The translations under genes and the position numbers were made by a program. 15,823 nucleotides of DNA from Gemmatimonadota bacterium (GTDB taxonomy: Bacteria > GCA-2686955). Where the stretch lies: NCBI GenBank assembly GCA_002686955.1, contig NYZA01000187.1:1-15823 (forward strand). Direction: 5' to 3'. Position 1 is the first letter of the stretch. Every line of letters begins with the position of its first letter. The notes beneath the pieces were generated by a model that did no database searches, was not told where the DNA came from, and worked only from the letters and a program-made list of their open reading frames with translations. Below, piece after piece: positions 2,797-10,762 of the stretch.

Positions 2797-4377
2797 ATGA
2801 CGCGCAACGCCCCGATTCGAAAGCTGCTTCCGCTGGCCCTCGCCGTGGCCGGCGTCGCCGCCGCCGCGCAGCCGCGGACGCCGGTGCAAGTTCGTGCCCC
2901 GTCGGTCGATGGCGGCGACGAAGATCCCTGGTATCTCTGCTGGTTTCGGGATCTGAACAACAACCGGATCGACGACGAGATCGAGGATTTCGAGATCGGT
3001 GCCCCGATGAGGGTCGACTTCATGGTGACCTTCGAGCGGGCCGCCTACGCCGCCGACCGCGATTCGCTGGTGGCGGAGCTCGACGCGATCGCTGCTCCCT
3101 TCGGCGGACATGTGGAGCAGGCATTCGAGATCCTGCCGAGCGTTCTGGTCGTGGGCACCGAGCTCAACTACCCGCTCTGGGACAACTTCTTCAATACCTA
3201 CCTCGACCCCTTCTTCATCAATCTCTTCATGGTGCCGATGCCCTTGCCGGTGGTCATGGTCGAGTCGATTCACCAGTCCGGTCCCGGTGCCGCCGTTGCA
3301 CCGTGCTCTACTACCCTGAGCGATCCCCTTTTCGACAGCGACTTCCTCGCCGACAGCAATGTGCTTCCAGCTGTTTGGGATACGACCGGCGGTGAGTGGC
3401 CCTGCGGCACGAGCGGCCTGAGCACGACGGTGGCGATCGTCGACGCGGGTGTGGACGGCTACGGATCGATCGACCCGCTCAAGCTCGCTGGTGGCTACGA
3501 TGCGGTGGCCGGCATGGAGCTCGATCCGGCCGATCAAACCGGACCGACGGGGGCCGATAATCTGTGGCACGGCACGCGGGTGGGGCATGTGGCGATGGGG
3601 CTCGATCGGGCCTACGGCGTGGCCCCCTTCGCCGCCCTGATCGATGTCAATATCGCCTATGCCCATACCGACACATTGCCCGAGGGGCACACCACTTCCG
3701 ATCGCATCTTGGCCGCCTTCGATTGGCTCTTGGCGCACAAGGACGACACATGGTCGCCGATCGGAGCGCCGAGCATCGATATCGGCCGGATCGACGCGGT
3801 CAATGTCTCCTACACCGACCACGGGCCGATCGCGGTGCGCTTCCTGCCGATTCCGACGAGCCCGGGTGCGCCGATGGGGCTCTCCGACGGAAGCGATCTG
3901 CTCTCGCGCGCCGTCGACAGTCTGGTGGTGAACGGCGGAATGCCGGTGGTGGTGGGGGCGGGGAACGATGGGGAGGCGGGTGCGGGATTCGGCGGGCTCG
4001 CGGCGGCCGCGAACGCGATTACGGTCGGTGCCTACGATTCCGCGGAGCCCGATAGCTCGGTGGCGTGGAGCAATCACGGCGTCGGCATCTATGGTGTCGT
4101 CAAGCCCGATCTCGTGGGATCGGGTGTCGATATCTACACCGGCGGCGCAAAAGGTAGCGGCACTTCCTTCGCGGCTCCCCAGGTGGCCGGGGCGGTTGCG
4201 TTGATGCGATCGGCTCACCCGACGGCCACCCCGGCCGAGTTGGCCCGGGCACTACGCGACTCGGCCGTGCCGCCCGAAGGCAGTTCGGGCTATCACTCTT
4301 ACTTCGGCTACGGTCGACTCGATGTCGAGGGCGCTCTGGCGGTCATCGACACTCTCGTCGGGGGAGGTGCGCCGTGA
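2797..4377 (+). CDS. Secreted subtilisin-like serine protease (S8 family)
   Basis: 526 residues. The start at 2797 is chosen because GGAG lies six bases upstream; an in-frame ATG at 2785 would add four residues but has no such site. The N terminus (MTRNAPIRK then a run of Leu/Ala/Val ending near AAAAQ) is a signal peptide. A Ca-binding-like loop (DLNNNRIDDEIE, about 52-63) follows, then a region of about 70-160 resembling an inhibitor-I9-type propeptide. The subtilase triad is intact: Asp216 in VAIVDAGVDG, His258 in WHGTRVGH, Ser457 in GSGTSFAAPQVAGA, with oxyanion Asn390 in GAGNDG. It should act outside the cytoplasm. It is the first gene of an operon; its stop overlaps the GTG start of an ECF sigma gene, so its expression is tied to that regulator. 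Substrate unknown. Confidence 0.92.
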   Translation: MTRNAPIRKLLPLALAVAGVAAAAQPRTPVQVRAPSVDGGDEDPWYLCWFRDLNNNRIDDEIEDFEIGAPMRVDFMVTFERAAYAADRDSLVAELDAIAAPFGGHVEQAFEILPSVLVVGTELNYPLWDNFFNTYLDPFFINLFMVPMPLPVVMVESIHQSGPGAAVAPCSTTLSDPLFDSDFLADSNVLPAVWDTTGGEWPCGTSGLSTTVAIVDAGVDGYGSIDPLKLAGGYDAVAGMELDPADQTGPTGADNLWHGTRVGHVAMGLDRAYGVAPFAALIDVNIAYAHTDTLPEGHTTSDRILAAFDWLLAHKDDTWSPIGAPSIDIGRIDAVNVSYTDHGPIAVRFLPIPTSPGAPMGLSDGSDLLSRAVDSLVVNGGMPVVVGAGNDGEAGAGFGGLAAAANAITVGAYDSAEPDSSVAWSNHGVGIYGVVKPDLVGSGVDIYTGGAKGSGTSFAAPQVAGAVALMRSAHPTATPAELARALRDSAVPPEGSSGYHSYFGYGRLDVEGALAVIDTLVGGGAP

Positions 4378-5141
4378 TCGCCGCCGCCGCTTCTTTCCCG
4401 GGTGGTGCCGACACTTCTGGCGCCCGAGAGGCCGACCGGAGACTCGCGCGGGTCTGCGCCGCCTCGCCGCCCGATCGTTCCGCCTGGGAGCAGCTATACG
4501 CGTCGCATTCCGCTGGGGTGAGACAGTGGATTCGGCGGGGGCGTCGCCTCGGTTCCGACGAGGGTGTCGAAGACATGCTGCAACAGGTTTTTCTGCTCTG
4601 TGCGCAAGGAGCTCTGGCCCGATACCGTGGCGAAACCTCGCTGCGTGCCTATCTGTTGCGGATCGCCGAGCGGGTTCGGATCAGCGAGAATCGTCGCTTG
4701 ACCCGGCAGTGCCGGGACGTTCGCGGCGAAGTGTCGCTCGATGCTCCGGTCGGTGATGGTGATGACGGCGGCGGATCGTGGATGAACATGATGGGGCGGG
4801 ACCATTCCGTCCCCCACAGTCTCGGCTTCTGGTGCTCCGAATTCGGGCAAAGACCCGATGAAGCGTTGGAAGCACGGGAACGACTCCTCCAGATCAACCA
4901 CCTGGTCGACGCGCTCGAGGATTCCCTCGATCGCAAGATCCTGAGGGAGTACTTCTGGGAGAGTCGAAAAGACCGCGAGATCGCCGAAAGTCTGAAGATC
5001 TCGATCAATACAGTGACGTGGCGCCGCCACCGAGCCCAGGCCCGGGTAGAAGAAACCTGGTGCCAACAGTTCGAGGGGGAGCCGCGATCCCACAAAAACA
5101 AGAAAATGCGTTCGAAATCGCGAGAGGGGAAGAAGTCGTGA
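4374..5141 (+). CDS. ECF-type sigma-70 family factor
   Basis: A 255-residue sigma factor that would direct RNA polymerase to alternative promoters. Region 2 spans about 35-108 (AWEQLYASHSAGVRQWI, then VEDMLQQVFLLC and the LRAYLLRIAERVRISENRR helix). Region 4 spans about 163-226, with the HTH in DREIAESLKISINTVTWRRHR. Between them is a long, Gly/Asp/Met-containing linker of about 54 residues, longer than in simple ECF factors. The tail is very basic (HKNKKMRSKSREGKKS). GGGAGG sits just upstream of the GTG start, which overlaps the subtilase stop as GTGA. The next gene overlaps the same way, the normal arrangement of a sigma factor with its inhibitor. Target promoters unknown. Confidence 0.85.
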   Translation: MIAAAASFPGGADTSGAREADRRLARVCAASPPDRSAWEQLYASHSAGVRQWIRRGRRLGSDEGVEDMLQQVFLLCAQGALARYRGETSLRAYLLRIAERVRISENRRLTRQCRDVRGEVSLDAPVGDGDDGGGSWMNMMGRDHSVPHSLGFWCSEFGQRPDEALEARERLLQINHLVDALEDSLDRKILREYFWESRKDREIAESLKISINTVTWRRHRAQARVEETWCQQFEGEPRSHKNKKMRSKSREGKKS

Positions 5142-5779
5142 AAGCCCTACACGCCCTCTGCCCGGCACCCGAGCGGCTCGTCGAGTATGTTCTGGACGGT
5201 CCGACCGACGAGATCACTACCCATATCGAGGACTGCGCCGAATGCTCGCGAGAAGTGATCGACATTTTCAAACGCTTCGACCAATTCAACGCGCTCGAGC
5301 GCAAAGGCGAAGGCGATACTCTGCCAACCGGGTTGTGGGAATCGCTCCACGCCGAGCACAAGACGCCACGGCCACCGGTGGTGCTGAGCCTGCGGCTGCA
5401 CCCGAAGCCCTCCTTCGTCGGTGGTGAGGGTGAGGGCGAGGGGGCGGAGCTGCGGGCGGCCGCGGGCGGTGGGTTGCGGGGTGGTGGAAAGGAATCCGCG
5501 GTGGCCGAGCTGACGACCAACGGCGGTTTGCGGCTGGTATTCGTGATCGTCGACGGCATGCTCTCGGTGCGGGCTCTGCGGGACGGTGCGCCTGAGGAGG
5601 GAGTGCGGCTCTCGCTGGGGGAAGTGTCGGGGGAGGGCGCCGAAGGCGAGGGCGAGAGCGGGAGCGGCCGAACGATCGCGCTGACGATCAGCACCGATGA
5701 AGCGGGGCAGGCGCGGGTGGAGCTGGCACCCTTCGCGGAGTGCGAGGGTTTGGGGATTCGATTGGAGCCGACGACGTAA
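5138..5779 (+). CDS. Putative zinc-finger anti-sigma factor, soluble
   Basis: Start set at GTG 5138: it overlaps the sigma stop as GTGA and has AGGGG about eight bases upstream. A longer open frame back to 5018 lies inside the sigma gene and is unlikely to be used. The 213-residue product has the zinc-binding anti-sigma motif HxxxCxxC (His29, Cys33, Cys36 in HIEDCAEC), as in the ZAS domain that clamps ECF sigma factors. No membrane helix is visible, so it is predicted cytoplasmic, unlike many anti-sigmas. Residues about 90-120 and the Gly/Glu-rich stretches (about 93-118 and 163-178) look flexible; the C-terminal part (VFVIVDGMLSV, TIALTIS) looks like beta strands. The stop codon TAA is the first three bases of the fold-back element, so the natural C terminus may have been altered. 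The anti-sigma role is inferred from motif and gene order. Confidence 0.7.
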   Translation: MKALHALCPAPERLVEYVLDGPTDEITTHIEDCAECSREVIDIFKRFDQFNALERKGEGDTLPTGLWESLHAEHKTPRPPVVLSLRLHPKPSFVGGEGEGEGAELRAAAGGGLRGGGKESAVAELTTNGGLRLVFVIVDGMLSVRALRDGAPEEGVRLSLGEVSGEGAEGEGESGSGRTIALTISTDEAGQARVELAPFAECEGLGIRLEPTT

Positions 5780-5958
5780 GGGTCCGCGCAAGAATTGCTT
5801 GTCATTTTGCATCCCATCTGCACCACAATCGGCCGATCGGCGAGCCCCGAAAGCCTCGAAATAGCCCGACTATTCCTCCGGTTTCGAGGCTCGCCGATCA
5901 ACCGGATCTGCGGCACATCTGGGCGCCAAGATGACAAGTAATCTTGCGCGGACCCTTA
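5777..5958. mobile_element. 182-bp fold-back MITE-like element with TA ends
   Basis: The two ends are inverted copies: TAAGGGTCCGCGCAAGA at 5777-5793 matches the reverse complement of 5942-5958 exactly, and after a small difference CTTGTCAT matches again (the other end reads ATGACAAG at 5931-5938). The similarity runs on weakly through the whole element to an inner 18-base arm pair (5835-5852 with 5882-5899, one mismatch) around a centre near 5867. It has no coding capacity. Ends of TA-AGGG and CCCT-TA fit a TA target duplication, as in IS630/mariner-type and some related transposon families; which family mobilised it is unknown. As RNA it would fold into a long hairpin between the sigma/anti-sigma genes and the CHAT gene. 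Confidence 0.75.
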
Positions 5959-6201
5959 GGATCCTTGGCGGGATGCCGCGAAGAAAGCGATTCCTTCCCC
6001 TGGCCTCGAGCCCCACGTCCGCCCAGTACTCCAGCGGGCGAGGCGTACTCCACGACCCCAGCCAGGAGCGACACTGCCGTCCATGCGCCACAGCGCGCTC
6101 GGAGTCGATACCGGGTCGAATTCGGGTGTCGCCGGAATCGACGCCGGTGGGTGCGCACCGAGTGCGAGAGCGGCTGTCGCCGAGAAGGCGGTGATCCTCA
6201 T
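5956..6201 (-). CDS. Small minus-strand reading frame with leader-like start, possibly a gene remnant
   Basis: An ATG at 6201 on the minus strand follows GGAGA with seven to eight bases spacing and opens an 81-residue frame starting MRITAFSATAALALGAHPPA, which looks like a signal or lipoprotein-like leader. The rest is not recognisable. The frame ends at the TAA formed by the outer end of the fold-back element, so it may be a gene cut off by that insertion. A second minus frame over the same stretch (around 5960-6070, including PLEYWADVGLEARGR) also has a coding-like look, hinting at a frameshifted remnant. Evidence is weak; no function assigned. Confidence 0.25.
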   Translation of the reverse strand: MRITAFSATAALALGAHPPASIPATPEFDPVSTPSALWRMDGSVAPGWGRGVRLARWSTGRTWGSRPGEGIAFFAASRQGS

Positions 6202-6332
6202 TGCCTATCTCCATGCTCAGGTCATCGGTACACTCGGATCGATCGCCAGTCGCCGATCCGCTCTTCGCGTGACGGAGTGCGAGCCTTTTCGGTCGAAGTC
6301 GAGTCTCGCGGAGCCAAACCCAACCCAACGGA
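5959..6332. other. Region between the fold-back element and the CHAT gene
   Basis: Nothing firmly identifiable lies here beyond the weak minus-strand frame. The CHAT start has no strong Shine-Dalgarno sequence, and I see no convincing promoter, although the distance from the sigma/anti-sigma operon suggests that the CHAT gene has its own promoter here. Confidence 0.4.
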
Positions 6333-9176
6333 ATGCCCGACCCAGAAGATCCCGCCGAGCGACCGCCGAAGGCACCGCGGCGCGCCTCCCCGCAGTCGGA
6401 GCTGCGCACGGCCCGCGCGAAGCTGCGCGCCCTCGGCCGCCGCGCGCCCCCCTCGGAACGCGCCAAGGCTCACCTCGAGCTCGCCATGGCCCTTCGAACC
6501 CTCGGGCGTTACCGCGACGCCGACGCCACTCTCGGCGACGCGCGATCGCAGCTCACGCCCGCGCCCACCGAACCCCCCGACTCCCGCATCGCCGCCGAGA
6601 TCGCTCTGGAGCGGGCGCGCGTTCTCTGGCAGACCGGCGACCACGAGGGCGCGCGGGCCGAGGGAGTTCTAGCGCGCGAACGGTTTCAGGCGCTGAACGA
6701 CGAGCTGGGCGAGGCCGAGGTCGATCTGGTGCTAGCCGAGATACTGCACCACGATCTCGATGCCCGAGACGTCGACAGTGCCCTCGAACGTGCGCACGCG
6801 ATCTTCGAGAGGCAGGGCGAGGAATGGCTCGCGGCCAGAGCCGACACGGTGCTGGCCAATCGGCAGGCGCAGGCCGGCGAAATGCCGGAAGCCGCCATCC
6901 GCTATGAGCGTGCGAGCGAGATCTTCGAGCACCTCGACGACATCGGAGCGGTGGCCACCTGTCAGGCGAATCTCGCCACGATCCATCTTCTGCGGGGCGA
7001 GCTCCAGCGGGCGGTGCGACGCGCCACCCGTGCCCGCGACGAGTATCGGCGCCTCGGTATGTTGACCTACGCGGCGCTCACCGAGCTGAATCTCTGCCAG
7101 CTCCTGCTCGATCTCAACCGGAACGACGAGGCCCTCCAGCTGGCCCGATCCGCCCGCGAACAGCTCGCGGCGGAGGGGCTGGCCTACGACAACGCGATCC
7201 TCGCCATCAACCTGGGCCGAGCATTGGCCCGCACCGGAGATGCAGCCGAGGCCCGCCGGGTGTTGGGCGACGCGGCTTCCGTCTTTCGCGAATCCGGCGC
7301 CTCGCTCTGGGAGGCTCAGGTCGATGTGGACGTCGCCGCGATCGACCTCGCCGGCGGCCACTGGAAACAGGCGCAAGAACGCGCGGCCCAGGCCCGCGCG
7401 GTCCTGGACGAAGCCGGGACTCCCCTCTACGCGGCGTATGCGCTGCTGGTCGAAGCACGGGCCGCCGAAGAGATCGATCCCGCCGAATCGCTGACCCTGC
7501 ACCGCCGTGCCCTCGCCCTGGGAGAAGCGACCCACATCACCTGGCTCAGCTACCGGGCCCACCACCGGATCGCCCTCCTGCTCGATGCCGCCGGCCACCC
7601 CACCGCGGCCCGCCGGCACGCCGATCAAGCCCTGCGCCTCATTGAGGACTCCCGCCTCGCCCTCGCCGGCGACCTCGCCAAAACCGCCTTCCTCGAGGAC
7701 AAGGGGGAGGCGTTCGAGACAGCGGTCCGCCTGCACCTCTCCGCCGACGATCCGTCCGCCGCCCTGCGCGCCGCCGAGTCGGCGAAATCGAGCGCCCTCG
7801 CCGATCTCGTCGCCGCGAGCGGAGAGAGCGTCGCGCCCGCCGCTGCCCTCCCCGAAGACGTCGCCGCCGACTGGAGAGCGCTCGAAACCACCCGCAAGGA
7901 GTATTTCGCCCTCGCCTCCGGTCTCGCGGCCTCCGACGAATCGGGCGTCCCCTCCGCTCCCGGACCCGAAGGAGCACTCATGCGGGCCGCGGTTCGCACC
8001 CAGACCCTGGCCGAGCAGTACGAACGCCTGCGCGACCGCCTCCAAGCAAAGGGACGCGGCGATCTGATCGATCTGCACAGCGCCTCGCCGATGACCGCCT
8101 CCGAGATCGCCGCGCTCCTCGGCCCGAACGACCTCTTCCTCGACCTCTTCGCGCACGACCAGGAGCTCTCCGCCTTCCTCATCGACCCATCCGGAGGCGT
8201 CAAGGTCGAGAGCATCGGCGACTGGAACAAGATTCGCCACCTGCTCCATGACGATTGGAACCGAGAGATCGGGGAGATGGCGAGCCTCGGCCCCGATCTG
8301 CGCCGGACCCTCGCCCCGAGCCTGCTCGCCTCCGCCGAGCGCTGCCTCGCCTCCCTAGGCGACCTGCTCCTCGCCCCCTTCGCCAACGAAATCGGAGCCG
8401 CCCGCACCCTCTTCATCGCCCCCCACGGCCCCCTCCACGCCGCGCCCTTCCCGGCCCTCCTCCTCGACGGCGCCCCCCTAGCCACCCACATCGAGACCGC
8501 CATCGTCCCCAGCGCCTCGGTTCTCCGCTCCCTTGCCGCCCGCGGACGCGGCGCCTCCCCCGGCGCGCCCCCCCTGATCTGCGCCGTCGCCGACGAGGAC
8601 GCCCCGGCCTTCGAGCACGAGGCCCGCGAAGTGAAACTGCTCCTCGGCGAAGACGCCCAACTCCTCGAAGGCGCGTCCGCCACCCCAGCCCGCCTGCTCG
8701 CCGGCGCCCGCGACGCCTCCCATCTGCACATCGCCTGCCACGGCGAATTCGACGGCGCATCCCCCATGGCCTCCGCCCTCTCCTTGGCGGGGGGCAAGCT
8801 CACCGCCGCCGACCTCTACCGCGCCCGGATCGCCGGCCCCCTCGTCGTCCTCTCCGGATGCGAAACCGGCAGATCCCGCGTCCGCCCGGGCGACGAGCTG
8901 CTCGGACTGCTCCGCGGCATCCTCTTCGCCGGCGCCGGCGCAGTCGTGGCCAGCCTTTGGCGCGTCGACGACCGCGCCGCGGCCGATCTCATGGGCGCCC
9001 TCTATCGCCACCTGAAATCGGGAGCGCCGGCCGCCGCCGCGCTCCGCCACGCCCAGCTGGAGATCCGCGAACGCCGCCCCCACCCCTACGACTGGGCATC
9101 GTTCGAGGTCTTCGGACGCGGCGATATCACGCTTGCGGTCTCGCCCCCCGACGAAGACGAAGAGGGGGAGGGATGA
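6333..9176 (+). CDS. TPR-CHAT protein, predicted caspase-like cysteine protease
   Basis: 947 residues. About 40-450 is a row of TPR-type helical repeats (for example ELAMALRTLGRYRDADATL, CQANLATIHLLRGELQRAV, NLGRALARTGDAAEARRVL). About 600-940 is a CHAT domain (caspase HetF associated with TPRs). The catalytic pair is present: His803 in HIACHGEF and Cys843 in LSGCETG, followed by GDELLGLLRGILFAGAGAVVASLW and the end motif YDWASFEVFGRG, all typical. It has no signal peptide, so it should act in the cytoplasm, with the repeats sensing or holding a partner. In type III-E CRISPR, a TPR-CHAT protease cuts the inhibitor of a sigma factor; here a sigma/anti-sigma pair lies just upstream, suggesting the anti-sigma as substrate (inference). 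Start at ATG 6333 has a weak ribosome binding site. The coding strand is strikingly C-rich, especially in the second half. Confidence 0.9.
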   Translation: MPDPEDPAERPPKAPRRASPQSELRTARAKLRALGRRAPPSERAKAHLELAMALRTLGRYRDADATLGDARSQLTPAPTEPPDSRIAAEIALERARVLWQTGDHEGARAEGVLARERFQALNDELGEAEVDLVLAEILHHDLDARDVDSALERAHAIFERQGEEWLAARADTVLANRQAQAGEMPEAAIRYERASEIFEHLDDIGAVATCQANLATIHLLRGELQRAVRRATRARDEYRRLGMLTYAALTELNLCQLLLDLNRNDEALQLARSAREQLAAEGLAYDNAILAINLGRALARTGDAAEARRVLGDAASVFRESGASLWEAQVDVDVAAIDLAGGHWKQAQERAAQARAVLDEAGTPLYAAYALLVEARAAEEIDPAESLTLHRRALALGEATHITWLSYRAHHRIALLLDAAGHPTAARRHADQALRLIEDSRLALAGDLAKTAFLEDKGEAFETAVRLHLSADDPSAALRAAESAKSSALADLVAASGESVAPAAALPEDVAADWRALETTRKEYFALASGLAASDESGVPSAPGPEGALMRAAVRTQTLAEQYERLRDRLQAKGRGDLIDLHSASPMTASEIAALLGPNDLFLDLFAHDQELSAFLIDPSGGVKVESIGDWNKIRHLLHDDWNREIGEMASLGPDLRRTLAPSLLASAERCLASLGDLLLAPFANEIGAARTLFIAPHGPLHAAPFPALLLDGAPLATHIETAIVPSASVLRSLAARGRGASPGAPPLICAVADEDAPAFEHEAREVKLLLGEDAQLLEGASATPARLLAGARDASHLHIACHGEFDGASPMASALSLAGGKLTAADLYRARIAGPLVVLSGCETGRSRVRPGDELLGLLRGILFAGAGAVVASLWRVDDRAAADLMGALYRHLKSGAPAAAALRHAQLEIRERRPHPYDWASFEVFGRGDITLAVSPPDEDEEGEG

Positions 9177-9335: not shown

Positions 9336-9668
9336 TCAGTTAGGTCGGTCCGCGTTTGCATTTCCGATGGTCCGTCCAAGTTCGGTCAATGGGGCACCGA
9401 GGGAGAGCAATGTTCGGACCAGTAGGTCAATGGAAACCGTGGGATCCGCAGCCTCCATCTTGGCTACTCGTGACTGGCTGGACTGGACCAGCCGAGCCAC
9501 ATCGATTTGGGTCATACTCCGGGACGAGCGCCAGGCCCTGATGGCGCCCGCGAGGGCGATCTTCGCGTTGAGGAATGCCTGCTCTTCTGGAGTGAGATCC
9601 AGGAACTCCTCCGCGGTGCCGACCATCCAACCTGCGGCTTCGAGGCGCCGCTTTTTTTCTTTCTTCAT
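9336..9668 (-). CDS. HigA-type antitoxin, XRE-family DNA-binding protein
   Basis: A 110-residue protein with an XRE-type helix-turn-helix (MTQIDVARLVQSSQSRVAKMEAADPTVSIDLLVRTL, about 53-88) after a basic start (MKKEKKRRLEAAG) and an acidic segment (AEEFLDLTPEEQAFL). This matches the antitoxin family paired with Gp49-like HigB toxins. It would neutralise the toxin and repress the operon. GGAAA lies six bases before the ATG. The toxin gene comes first on the same strand and ends 12 bases upstream, the HigBA order. It converges with the CHAT gene, with about 160 bases between them holding GTGA/TCAC inverted repeats (9304-9330). Confidence 0.85.
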   Translation of the reverse strand: MKKEKKRRLEAAGWMVGTAEEFLDLTPEEQAFLNAKIALAGAIRAWRSSRSMTQIDVARLVQSSQSRVAKMEAADPTVSIDLLVRTLLSLGAPLTELGRTIGNANADRPN

Positions 9669-9680
9669 GTTGCTTTCCAG

Positions 9681-10043
9681 TCAAGAGATCGCATCGTAGC
9701 TACGCAAGCGCTTCCGGCAGCGGCCCATGATGGCGTTCGGGGTCTTGCCGGTCTTCTTGCTGAATACGTCCACGATCACGATGGCATCCAAGTCAATCCT
9801 GTAGATGAGCCGCCAGCTCTTCTCTCCGTCCTGGATTCGCAATTCGTGGCATCTCGACGCTACCGATGGCATTGGTCGGGAGTGGGGTAAACCCAGGCTC
9901 TGTCCTGCCTGAAGAGCACGGAGCAAGAACCCAGAACGAAGTCGAGCACTTCTGGAAAACGGCGGGCTCCTTACTTCGCCGTGGAGCCACACCAGGGGCT
10001 TGTCGTCCGTGCTAATAGGACCATGATATGTCCGATCCGGCAT
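9681..10043 (-). CDS. HigB-type toxin (phage-derived Gp49-like, RelE superfamily)
   Basis: A 120-residue basic protein matching the Gp49-like HigB toxins: KPLVWLHGEVRSPPFS near 15-30, FLLRALQAGQSLGLPHSRPMPS, CHELRIQDGEKSWRLIYRID and the end KKTGKTPNAIMGRCRKRLRSY. In this family the toxin is a ribosome-dependent mRNA cutter. It looks complete. Most relatives start close to the KPLVWL motif, so the first dozen residues may be extra and the true start slightly later. The ATG at 10043 lies inside a perfect inverted repeat, which suggests self-regulation by the toxin-antitoxin complex. Confidence 0.85.
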   Translation of the reverse strand: MPDRTYHGPISTDDKPLVWLHGEVRSPPFSRSARLRSGFLLRALQAGQSLGLPHSRPMPSVASRCHELRIQDGEKSWRLIYRIDLDAIVIVDVFSKKTGKTPNAIMGRCRKRLRSYDAIS

Positions 10044-10225: not shown

Positions 10226-10762
10226 TCATTCCCATTCCTCTCTGAAGCCCTCATCGTGCGTAGACCAGGGTTCGTTCTTCAGACGCTCGTACACGTTGAA
10301 GACAATTGGGCAGATCGAGCAGTTATGAACCGCTCGACCCAATCGGAAACCAAACTCACCTTTGTCCAGGTGCGGGAATGAGCGGCAAGCCTTCGGCCGG
10401 TGCCCATACGCGCGACAGAGATTCTCTGTCAGGAGTGGACACGGCTTTTTGTTGAAACTCAGGTCGCCGTCTTCATCTGGGGCCAGAAGACGTTTCGTCA
10501 GGTCCTCTGTGGAGAATCCAAGGCCAGACGCAAGTCTCCCTACGTCATCCTGGTCGAGGGACGGAATTACCTCGCAGCAACAATTGTAGCATGAAGTGCA
10601 GTCAATCTGTTTCGATACGGCTTCATAGTGCCGATAGACTATGGCATCCAGTTCCTCGAGCTCTAGATCTACTCGCTTGAGAAACGAGCGGAATCGCCAA
10701 TTCGTGCCCTCGCGTTCCGCGGCAAGCATCGCAATCACCTTCGGGTGTGTTTGAACTTTCAT
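10226..10762 (-). CDS. YkgJ-like cysteine-cluster protein
   Basis: A 178-residue protein of the YkgJ/PF03692 type, thought to bind zinc or iron through clustered cysteines; its biochemical role is unclear in general. Cysteines here: 55, 58, 61, 62, 63 (CTSCYNCCC), then 108, 116, 126, 148 and 151, with the family's RPKACRSFPH and CSICPIV segments. No membrane helix or signal peptide. AAGAGG sits directly before the ATG. It lies on the same strand as the toxin-antitoxin genes but 182 bases upstream of the toxin, so co-transcription is uncertain. Its DNA is less GC-rich than the neighbouring regions, which suggests transfer. Confidence 0.75.
   Translation of the reverse strand: MKVQTHPKVIAMLAAEREGTNWRFRSFLKRVDLELEELDAIVYRHYEAVSKQIDCTSCYNCCCEVIPSLDQDDVGRLASGLGFSTEDLTKRLLAPDEDGDLSFNKKPCPLLTENLCRAYGHRPKACRSFPHLDKGEFGFRLGRAVHNCSICPIVFNVYERLKNEPWSTHDEGFREEWE

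Follow-up and report, generated by a model that had tools for sequence, protein, structure and literature searches.

A possible CRISPR-independent sigma switch: a TPR-CHAT protease gene beside subtilase, ECF sigma and putative zinc anti-sigma genes in a Gemmatimonadota bacterium

Genes and Repeat of the Locus

The window, the whole stretch of 15,823 nucleotides from a Gemmatimonadota bacterium that was analysed here, carries on its forward strand the genes for a subtilase, an ECF sigma factor, a putative zinc anti-sigma factor and a TPR-CHAT protease, with a palindromic repeat between the last two (Table 1). The first three genes are joined by GTGA overlaps, one at the junction of the subtilase stop and the sigma start and the other between the sigma and anti-sigma genes, which bears out the coupled operon that an earlier note had read from the letters of this DNA. 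The subtilase, described there as intact and secreted, keeps, besides its Pfam match, the catalytic triad D220/H262/S461 (numbered in the ORF from 2785) and has an N-terminus that resembles a signal peptide when read by eye; a relative occupies the same position in locus L036 of a sister genome, G001. The assignment of the ECF sigma factor also held, as its TIGR02937 score exceeds the cut-off of that NCBIfam profile.

The third protein, P0003, carries the zinc motif H29-x3-C33-x2-C36, whose three residues are invariant in the compared set; the motif lies in an N-terminal helical domain of a protein encoded next to an ECF sigma gene, the combination described for zinc (ZAS) anti-sigma factors. 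P0003 by itself gave no Pfam match, and the name anti-sigma factor therefore rests on the motif, on the overlap with the sigma gene and on a profile of nine related proteins, which in the PDB matches two solved anti-sigma factors, RsiW at 1.6e-5 and ChrR at 6e-4. No transmembrane segment was seen in P0003, and its single-sequence AlphaFold model, of low confidence (pLDDT 44), has a secondary structure that is first helical and then beta. These results agree with the HxxxCxxC anti-sigma-like protein that had been proposed.

P0004, the TPR-CHAT protease, has an intact reading frame that is open over 947 codons, and its catalytic residues, His803 and Cys843, confirm the intact His/Cys pair claimed for it. 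No cas gene was found among the window ORFs examined, and no RAMP-family protein (PF03787, E 0.001) was found in the window's own genome, G000, which is 84.5% complete, in line with the earlier description of the set as one without CRISPR.

Table 1. Features of the window, with positions counted from its first nucleotide
Feature	Position	Strand	Remarks
Secreted S8 subtilase	2797–4377 (alternative start 2785)	+	First operon gene; Pfam Peptidase_S8 1.1e-25
ECF sigma factor P0002 ("sigma-B", family-specific clade)	4374–5141	+	sigma70-ECF TIGR02937 4.3e-19
Putative soluble zinc anti-sigma factor P0003	5138–5779	+	HxxxCxxC domain and predicted beta-rich C-terminal domain
Dispersed near-perfect palindromic repeat, MITE-like, 182 bp	5777–5958		Ends TAAGGGTCC...GGACCCTTA
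TPR-CHAT cysteine protease P0004 (separase/Csx29-like)	6333–9176	+	Pfam CHAT 4.5e-55 plus TPR
HipB/Y4mF-like antitoxin gene	9336–9668	−	Part of probable toxin–antitoxin pair
Gp49/RelE-like toxin gene	9681–10043	−	Part of probable toxin–antitoxin pair

Directly after the CHAT gene, a probable toxin–antitoxin pair lies on the minus strand (9336–10043). It is followed on the same strand (10226–10762) by a gene for a 178-residue cysteine-rich protein, which by eye has the look of a YkgJ-type metal-cluster protein and gave no NCBIfam match above cut-off.

The repeat that separates the anti-sigma and CHAT genes has TA-ended inverted repeats and a folding energy of −107 kcal/mol (z −11), and the genome contains dozens of copies of it, with at least 40 sites scoring on either strand; it looks like a MITE or a REP-like mobile element. 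The anti-sigma gene takes its stop codon from the terminal TAA of this repeat, and the CHAT gene starts 553 bp after that stop. Because of this gap and the intervening palindrome, CHAT is probably not part of the transcript of the subtilase/sigma/anti-sigma operon, and the window, with the gene order subtilase, sigma, anti-sigma, repeat, CHAT, is therefore regarded as a three-gene operon plus a separate CHAT gene. The earlier statement that the protease follows the operon holds for its downstream position and its integrity, and has to be qualified by the repeat and the 553 bp.

Fold of the TPR-CHAT Protease and a Zinc-Finger/TPR-CHAT Fusion at Another Locus

The AlphaFold model of P0004 (pLDDT 76.6) matches the TPR-CHAT protein of Craspase with a Z score of 32.9 and separase with a Z score of 32.2 (2.7 Å over 330 residues), and it also matches the solved structure of a transmembrane anti-sigma factor, DdvA, with a Z score of 24.2 over 611 residues. 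Across the CHAT proteins that are encoded near a sigma gene, the catalytic His and Cys are kept in 32 of 33 aligned rows, gaps excepted.

At locus L092 (6149–10407), the end of a sigma gene is overlapped by an ORF for a fusion protein of 1200 residues, in which a pair of HxxxCxxC motifs, a hydrophobic segment and TPR repeats are combined with a CHAT domain that keeps both catalytic residues. The Pfam domains zf-HC2, TPR and CHAT all score above cut-off in this protein, and the order is zf-HC2, transmembrane segment, TPR and CHAT. The fusion and the DdvA match together mean that a union of TPR-CHAT with an anti-sigma factor has arisen at least once among the loci examined. L092 can be viewed as a one-gene version of the anti-sigma and CHAT pair, and it is perhaps the best object for experiments.

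The same two proteins bear on the alternative that TPR-CHAT is a sensor or scaffold that binds the anti-sigma factor and does not cut it, with other proteases responsible for the cutting or the active site working on something else. A transmembrane anti-sigma factor with a TPR-CHAT-like fold is consistent with such a role, as is the similar fusion of L092, in which the CHAT part would lie across the membrane from the sigma factor. However, a pure scaffold would have no need of the His/Cys pair, which is kept in almost all sigma-linked CHATs, and this explanation is clearly unlikely.

Linkage of CHAT with ECF Sigma Factors across Genomes

CHAT domains were searched in 386 diverse genomes, and 80 neighbourhoods from 59 families were taken, with 40 regions of the same genomes as controls; ECF sigma factors and the other families were found with iterated HMMs grown from the window's own proteins. 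At 26 of the 80 loci, the CHAT ORF has an ECF sigma gene no more than 1.5 kb away, against 2.4% expected for random placement in the controls, and the sigma-linked loci are distributed over 21 of the 59 families (p 2.6e-22). The linkage between CHAT and ECF sigma is above chance, with no excess left beyond about 2 kb. Inflation of the statistic by a single lineage was considered and rejected because of this spread over 21 families. On the CHAT tree, the sigma-linked label changes 22 times, compared with 26.9 times in shuffles.

A subtilase was found within 1 kb of CHAT at nine of the 80 loci and in none of the control regions. Where the sigma gene is upstream on the strand of CHAT, the intervening gene carries HxxxCxxC in most such loci, and the complete set of sigma factor, zinc anti-sigma factor, TPR-CHAT and secreted subtilase is plain at L099 and L102, with the same families at L135. 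The other 54 CHAT loci have no sigma gene nearby. A module anti-sigma (see below) had no relative in a plasmid collection, and the plasmid CHATs of Azospirillum, Streptomyces and Hymenobacter have no sigma gene adjoining. At three loci of family f77 (L108, L111 and L114), a CHAT of the module clade is directly followed by a subtilase, with no sigma gene nearby; the subtilase of L111 begins with no evident signal peptide.

A Four-Gene Module

In a reciprocal search, the anti-sigma factor of L099 alone was used as the query in 201 genomes of one phylum, and 18 relatives were recovered with their surroundings. An ECF sigma gene is present in 17 of the 18 loci, and TPR-CHAT directly follows the anti-sigma gene in 17, the remaining locus ending at a contig edge; a subtilase comes directly after CHAT in 13 of the 16 loci whose sequence continues past CHAT. 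By eye, these subtilases have signal peptides at their N-termini, and the anti-sigma gene overlaps the CHAT gene that follows it in most module loci. The canonical module is one operon in the order sigma, anti-sigma, CHAT, subtilase. In several loci, the protein between sigma and CHAT combines an HxxxCxxC start with a CarboxypepD_reg-like C-terminus, and six module anti-sigmas (L212–L217) lack HxxxCxxC and keep the C-terminal domain and the operon position.

Two proposals of the earlier note are borne out in part by these data. A conserved linkage of CHAT with sigma/anti-sigma pairs is supported by the enrichment, by the reciprocal search and by one fusion, and the note's idea thus withstood the refutation that it had named, a lack of such linkage, whereas CHAT is linked to the window's own type of pair in only two genomes of one family. 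The co-occurrence of the four families is upheld in that a subtilase regularly completes the operon as its fourth gene, but the gene order and the pair found elsewhere differ from those of the window.

In one family, a perfect GGAAC-N19-TCTAA stands upstream of the sigma gene, at −80 to −98, in four of four loci, where 0.03 sites with up to one mismatch would be expected per 400 bases. It looks like an autoregulated ECF promoter; the motif was absent from the other loci searched and from the window. An ECF-type promoter that precedes the operon, with all genes of the operon lying downstream of sigma, is consistent with the alternative that CHAT and the subtilase are both outputs, two effector proteases made on activation, of which one stays in the cell and the other is exported, and that the sigma/anti-sigma pair senses otherwise, for example through redox at the zinc site. 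Zinc anti-sigma factors such as ChrR and RsrA do their own sensing, and the subtilase operon also occurs at L036 with no CHAT adjacent. By contrast, the overlapping order of anti-sigma and CHAT, together with the L092 fusion, points to a physical or regulatory partnership, and the six module members have lost the zinc motif while retaining the C-terminal domain; the explanation by outputs appears rather doubtful.

Shared CHAT and Different Sigma/Anti-Sigma Pairs in the Window and the Module

Among the compared genomes, G001 is the only one of the window's family, the others being related at the domain level. It carries three copies of the window's sigma type. At L036, the order is subtilase, sigma, anti-sigma, as in the window, with no CHAT in the 2.8 kb that remain on the contig, and at L034 the sigma copy is accompanied by a cut-off anti-sigma. 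At L035, the window-type sigma gene (sigma-B) is directly downstream of a TPR-CHAT gene whose product is 44% identical to P0004 over 841 residues, and a second, different pair is found upstream of this CHAT. That pair consists of an ECF sigma factor, sigma-A, and of anti-sigma-A, a zinc-finger protein whose C-terminus is CarboxypepD_reg-like and whose stop codon overlaps the CHAT start. The complete order is sigma-A, anti-sigma-A, CHAT, sigma-B, anti-sigma-B, with one pair on each side of CHAT.

The trees place the genes of the window differently. P0004 is one of ten CHATs that group with 98% support and of which nine have a linked sigma factor and/or subtilase, whereas the window sigma and the three G001 sigma factors form their own clade (support 100) outside the module sigma clade; sigma-A of G001 stands at the base of the latter (support 88; 96 when sigma-A is left out). 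Among the subtilases, those of the window and L036 stand apart as a pair. An HMM of the module anti-sigma matches anti-sigma-A (2.3e-9) and the proteins of L071, L102 and L135 and gave no match to P0003, and in a profile comparison of the window and module anti-sigmas the zinc part alone aligns (probability 77); the two were therefore rejected as orthologues. Anti-sigma-A was not found in the window's genome, at 84.5% completeness, and there is no convincing remnant of it between the repeat and CHAT.

The window lies outside the sigma and anti-sigma clades of the module and departs from its gene order, and elsewhere CHAT and the subtilase accompany a pair other than that of the window. The simplest reading would be that CHAT is shared between the window and the module and that the sigma/anti-sigma pair is different. 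The original pair of the module seems to have been replaced, or displaced, by a lineage-specific one, joined by overlap to a subtilase gene of its own, and G001, where CHAT has a pair on either side, looks like an intermediate in what we infer to have been the order of events.

The same differences would also fit a merely historical neighbourhood, in which CHAT would be what remains of the module, now silenced or independent, and the subtilase/sigma/anti-sigma operon would function by itself. The different sigma clade, the unrelated C-terminal domain of the anti-sigma, the repeat insertion with the 553-bp gap, the missing anti-sigma-A and the L036 operon with no adjacent CHAT are all in keeping with it. 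A silenced leftover is hard to square with a CHAT gene whose long frame and catalytic pair are intact, and in the sister genome CHAT lies directly beside sigma-B and anti-sigma-B in another order, which argues that the association survived rearrangement; a historical explanation is very improbable.

The window's genome contains further CHAT genes. One TPR-CHAT gene is split over two contigs, the 5' end of L038 (C245) continuing the TPR protein at the edge of L040 (C152), with a shared DRIHEPARRHEL that joins the contigs, and an ECF-like sigma gene is located about 1 kb after the CHAT of this split gene. At L039 (C166, 11246–17317), tandem CHAT/TPR paralogues have a common 5' part, as if they had arisen by recent duplication.

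Proposed Mechanism

With a probability of about 0.5, the locus belongs, in variant form, to a widespread non-CRISPR regulatory module in which TPR-CHAT controls an ECF sigma factor via a zinc anti-sigma factor, with an exported subtilase encoded in the operon. As the subtilase is exported and the anti-sigma factor is predicted to be cytosolic, the subtilase would not be the protease of the anti-sigma factor, unless it acts on an outside signal, and CHAT, predicted to share the cytosol with the anti-sigma factor, is therefore the candidate protease. Such a cut has proven precedents in Csx29 acting on Csx30 (PMC10028731) and CalpL acting on CalpT (PMC11417357). Most likely, CHAT would cleave the cytosolic anti-sigma factor and free the sigma factor, which would drive the secreted subtilase.

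In the resting cell, the anti-sigma factor would hold sigma through its HxxxCxxC domain. The TPR solenoid may sense a signal, upon which the CHAT active site would open and the anti-sigma factor would be cut, most likely in the linker or in the beta-rich C-terminal domain. The cut fragment would lose its grip on sigma or be degraded, and the freed sigma factor would turn on its own operon, leading to the synthesis of the subtilase and its secretion as the output. The binding of sigma by the anti-sigma factor, the cleavage by CHAT, the sensing by TPR and the direction of control are predictions here, as is the role of the subtilase as output.

Counted against this switch are the six module anti-sigmas that lack the zinc motif and the 54 of 80 CHAT loci with no sigma gene, and, for the window in particular, L036 with no CHAT in its 2.8 kb and the absence of the ECF promoter motif. 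The repeat, the gap and the differing sigma/anti-sigma pair make the claim weaker for the window than for the canonical module.

Relation to Known Systems and Biological Meaning

In type III-E CRISPR systems, which include Cas7-11 and CASP-sigma, the TPR-CHAT protein Csx29 cuts the sigma inhibitor Csx30 (PMC10028731). The window resembles this system in the fold and catalytic pair of its TPR-CHAT, as judged from the model, in having neighbouring genes for a sigma factor and a putative sigma inhibitor, and in the proposed logic of protease, inhibitor and sigma. In contrast, no RAMP/Cas7-11 match was found in the window's genome in the PF03787 search, the putative inhibitor is a small zinc-type protein in which similarity to Csx30 was not detected, the set includes a secreted subtilase, and the trigger cannot be a guide RNA held by Cas7-11. 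In the comparison with Csx30, anti-sigma profile A1 matched no Csx30 chain among PDB sequences at E 5, and the model of P0003 was poor.

In the CalpL/CalpT/CalpS system of type III CRISPR, CalpL cuts CalpT, a soluble anti-sigma factor in complex with an ECF sigma factor (PMC11417357). The proposal for the window is alike in its soluble protease, soluble anti-sigma factor and ECF sigma factor, with a cleavage that is predicted here, but CalpL is a Lon/SAVED protease that is activated by cyclic oligoadenylate (PMC11417357). DdvA (PDB 8rot, 8rw5 and 8rlz) is likewise an anti-sigma factor with a TPR-CHAT-like region by structure; it is one membrane protein, whereas the anti-sigma factor and TPR-CHAT of the window are separate soluble proteins, and L092 is its closer analogue. 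In the EACC2-caspase systems, a caspase-superfamily protease is encoded with an ECF sigma factor and a transcriptional output has been proposed (PMC8195603); unlike the window, these systems have a different caspase family and different partner domains, and a zinc anti-sigma factor or a subtilase is not described there.

For the ECF54 group, the review PMC8999054, relaying Huang 2015 and Casas-Pastor 2021, names subtilase, CHAT and "carboxypeptidase" domain proteins as the conserved neighbours, with proteolytic regulation proposed, and lists the group as having no anti-sigma factor. The window sigma likewise has neighbouring subtilase and CHAT genes, but, in contrast to that listing, an HxxxCxxC protein overlaps it and is present in most module loci. 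The association of ECF sigma factors with subtilase and CHAT is already known from this account of ECF54; beyond the Strecker paper, the ECF54 sentence in that review was the only text found in the literature on CHAT with ECF or anti-sigma factors. Apparently new are the zinc-type anti-sigma nature of the protein encoded between sigma and CHAT, which at its C-terminus can be scored as CarboxypepD_reg, the conservation of the four genes as an operon in several families beyond the phylum of the window, and the exchangeability of the sigma/anti-sigma part.

Because the four kinds of gene recur together in unrelated bacteria without CRISPR, a protein-cutting switch that turns genes on is probably more general than its CRISPR version, for which proof already exists. 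More tentatively, there may be a general, CRISPR-independent switch family in many phyla, in which TPR-CHATs cut zinc anti-sigma factors that have a conserved beta-rich C-terminus and exported subtilases are the output; Csx29–Csx30–sigma would be one CRISPR-adopted branch of this older logic, and the window an exchange of the sigma/anti-sigma pair under a conserved pair of proteases. For most bacterial CHAT (caspase/separase-like) proteases, we know of no natural substrate, and the reciprocal linkage of TPR-CHAT with a specific small anti-sigma protein over multiple families names a candidate substrate for an entire clade of them. This linkage would explain a possible origin of the CRISPR-associated protease–sigma logic, and the zinc anti-sigma factor would supply the factor that the review's account of ECF54 gives as missing from CHAT- and subtilase-linked sigma factors of that type.
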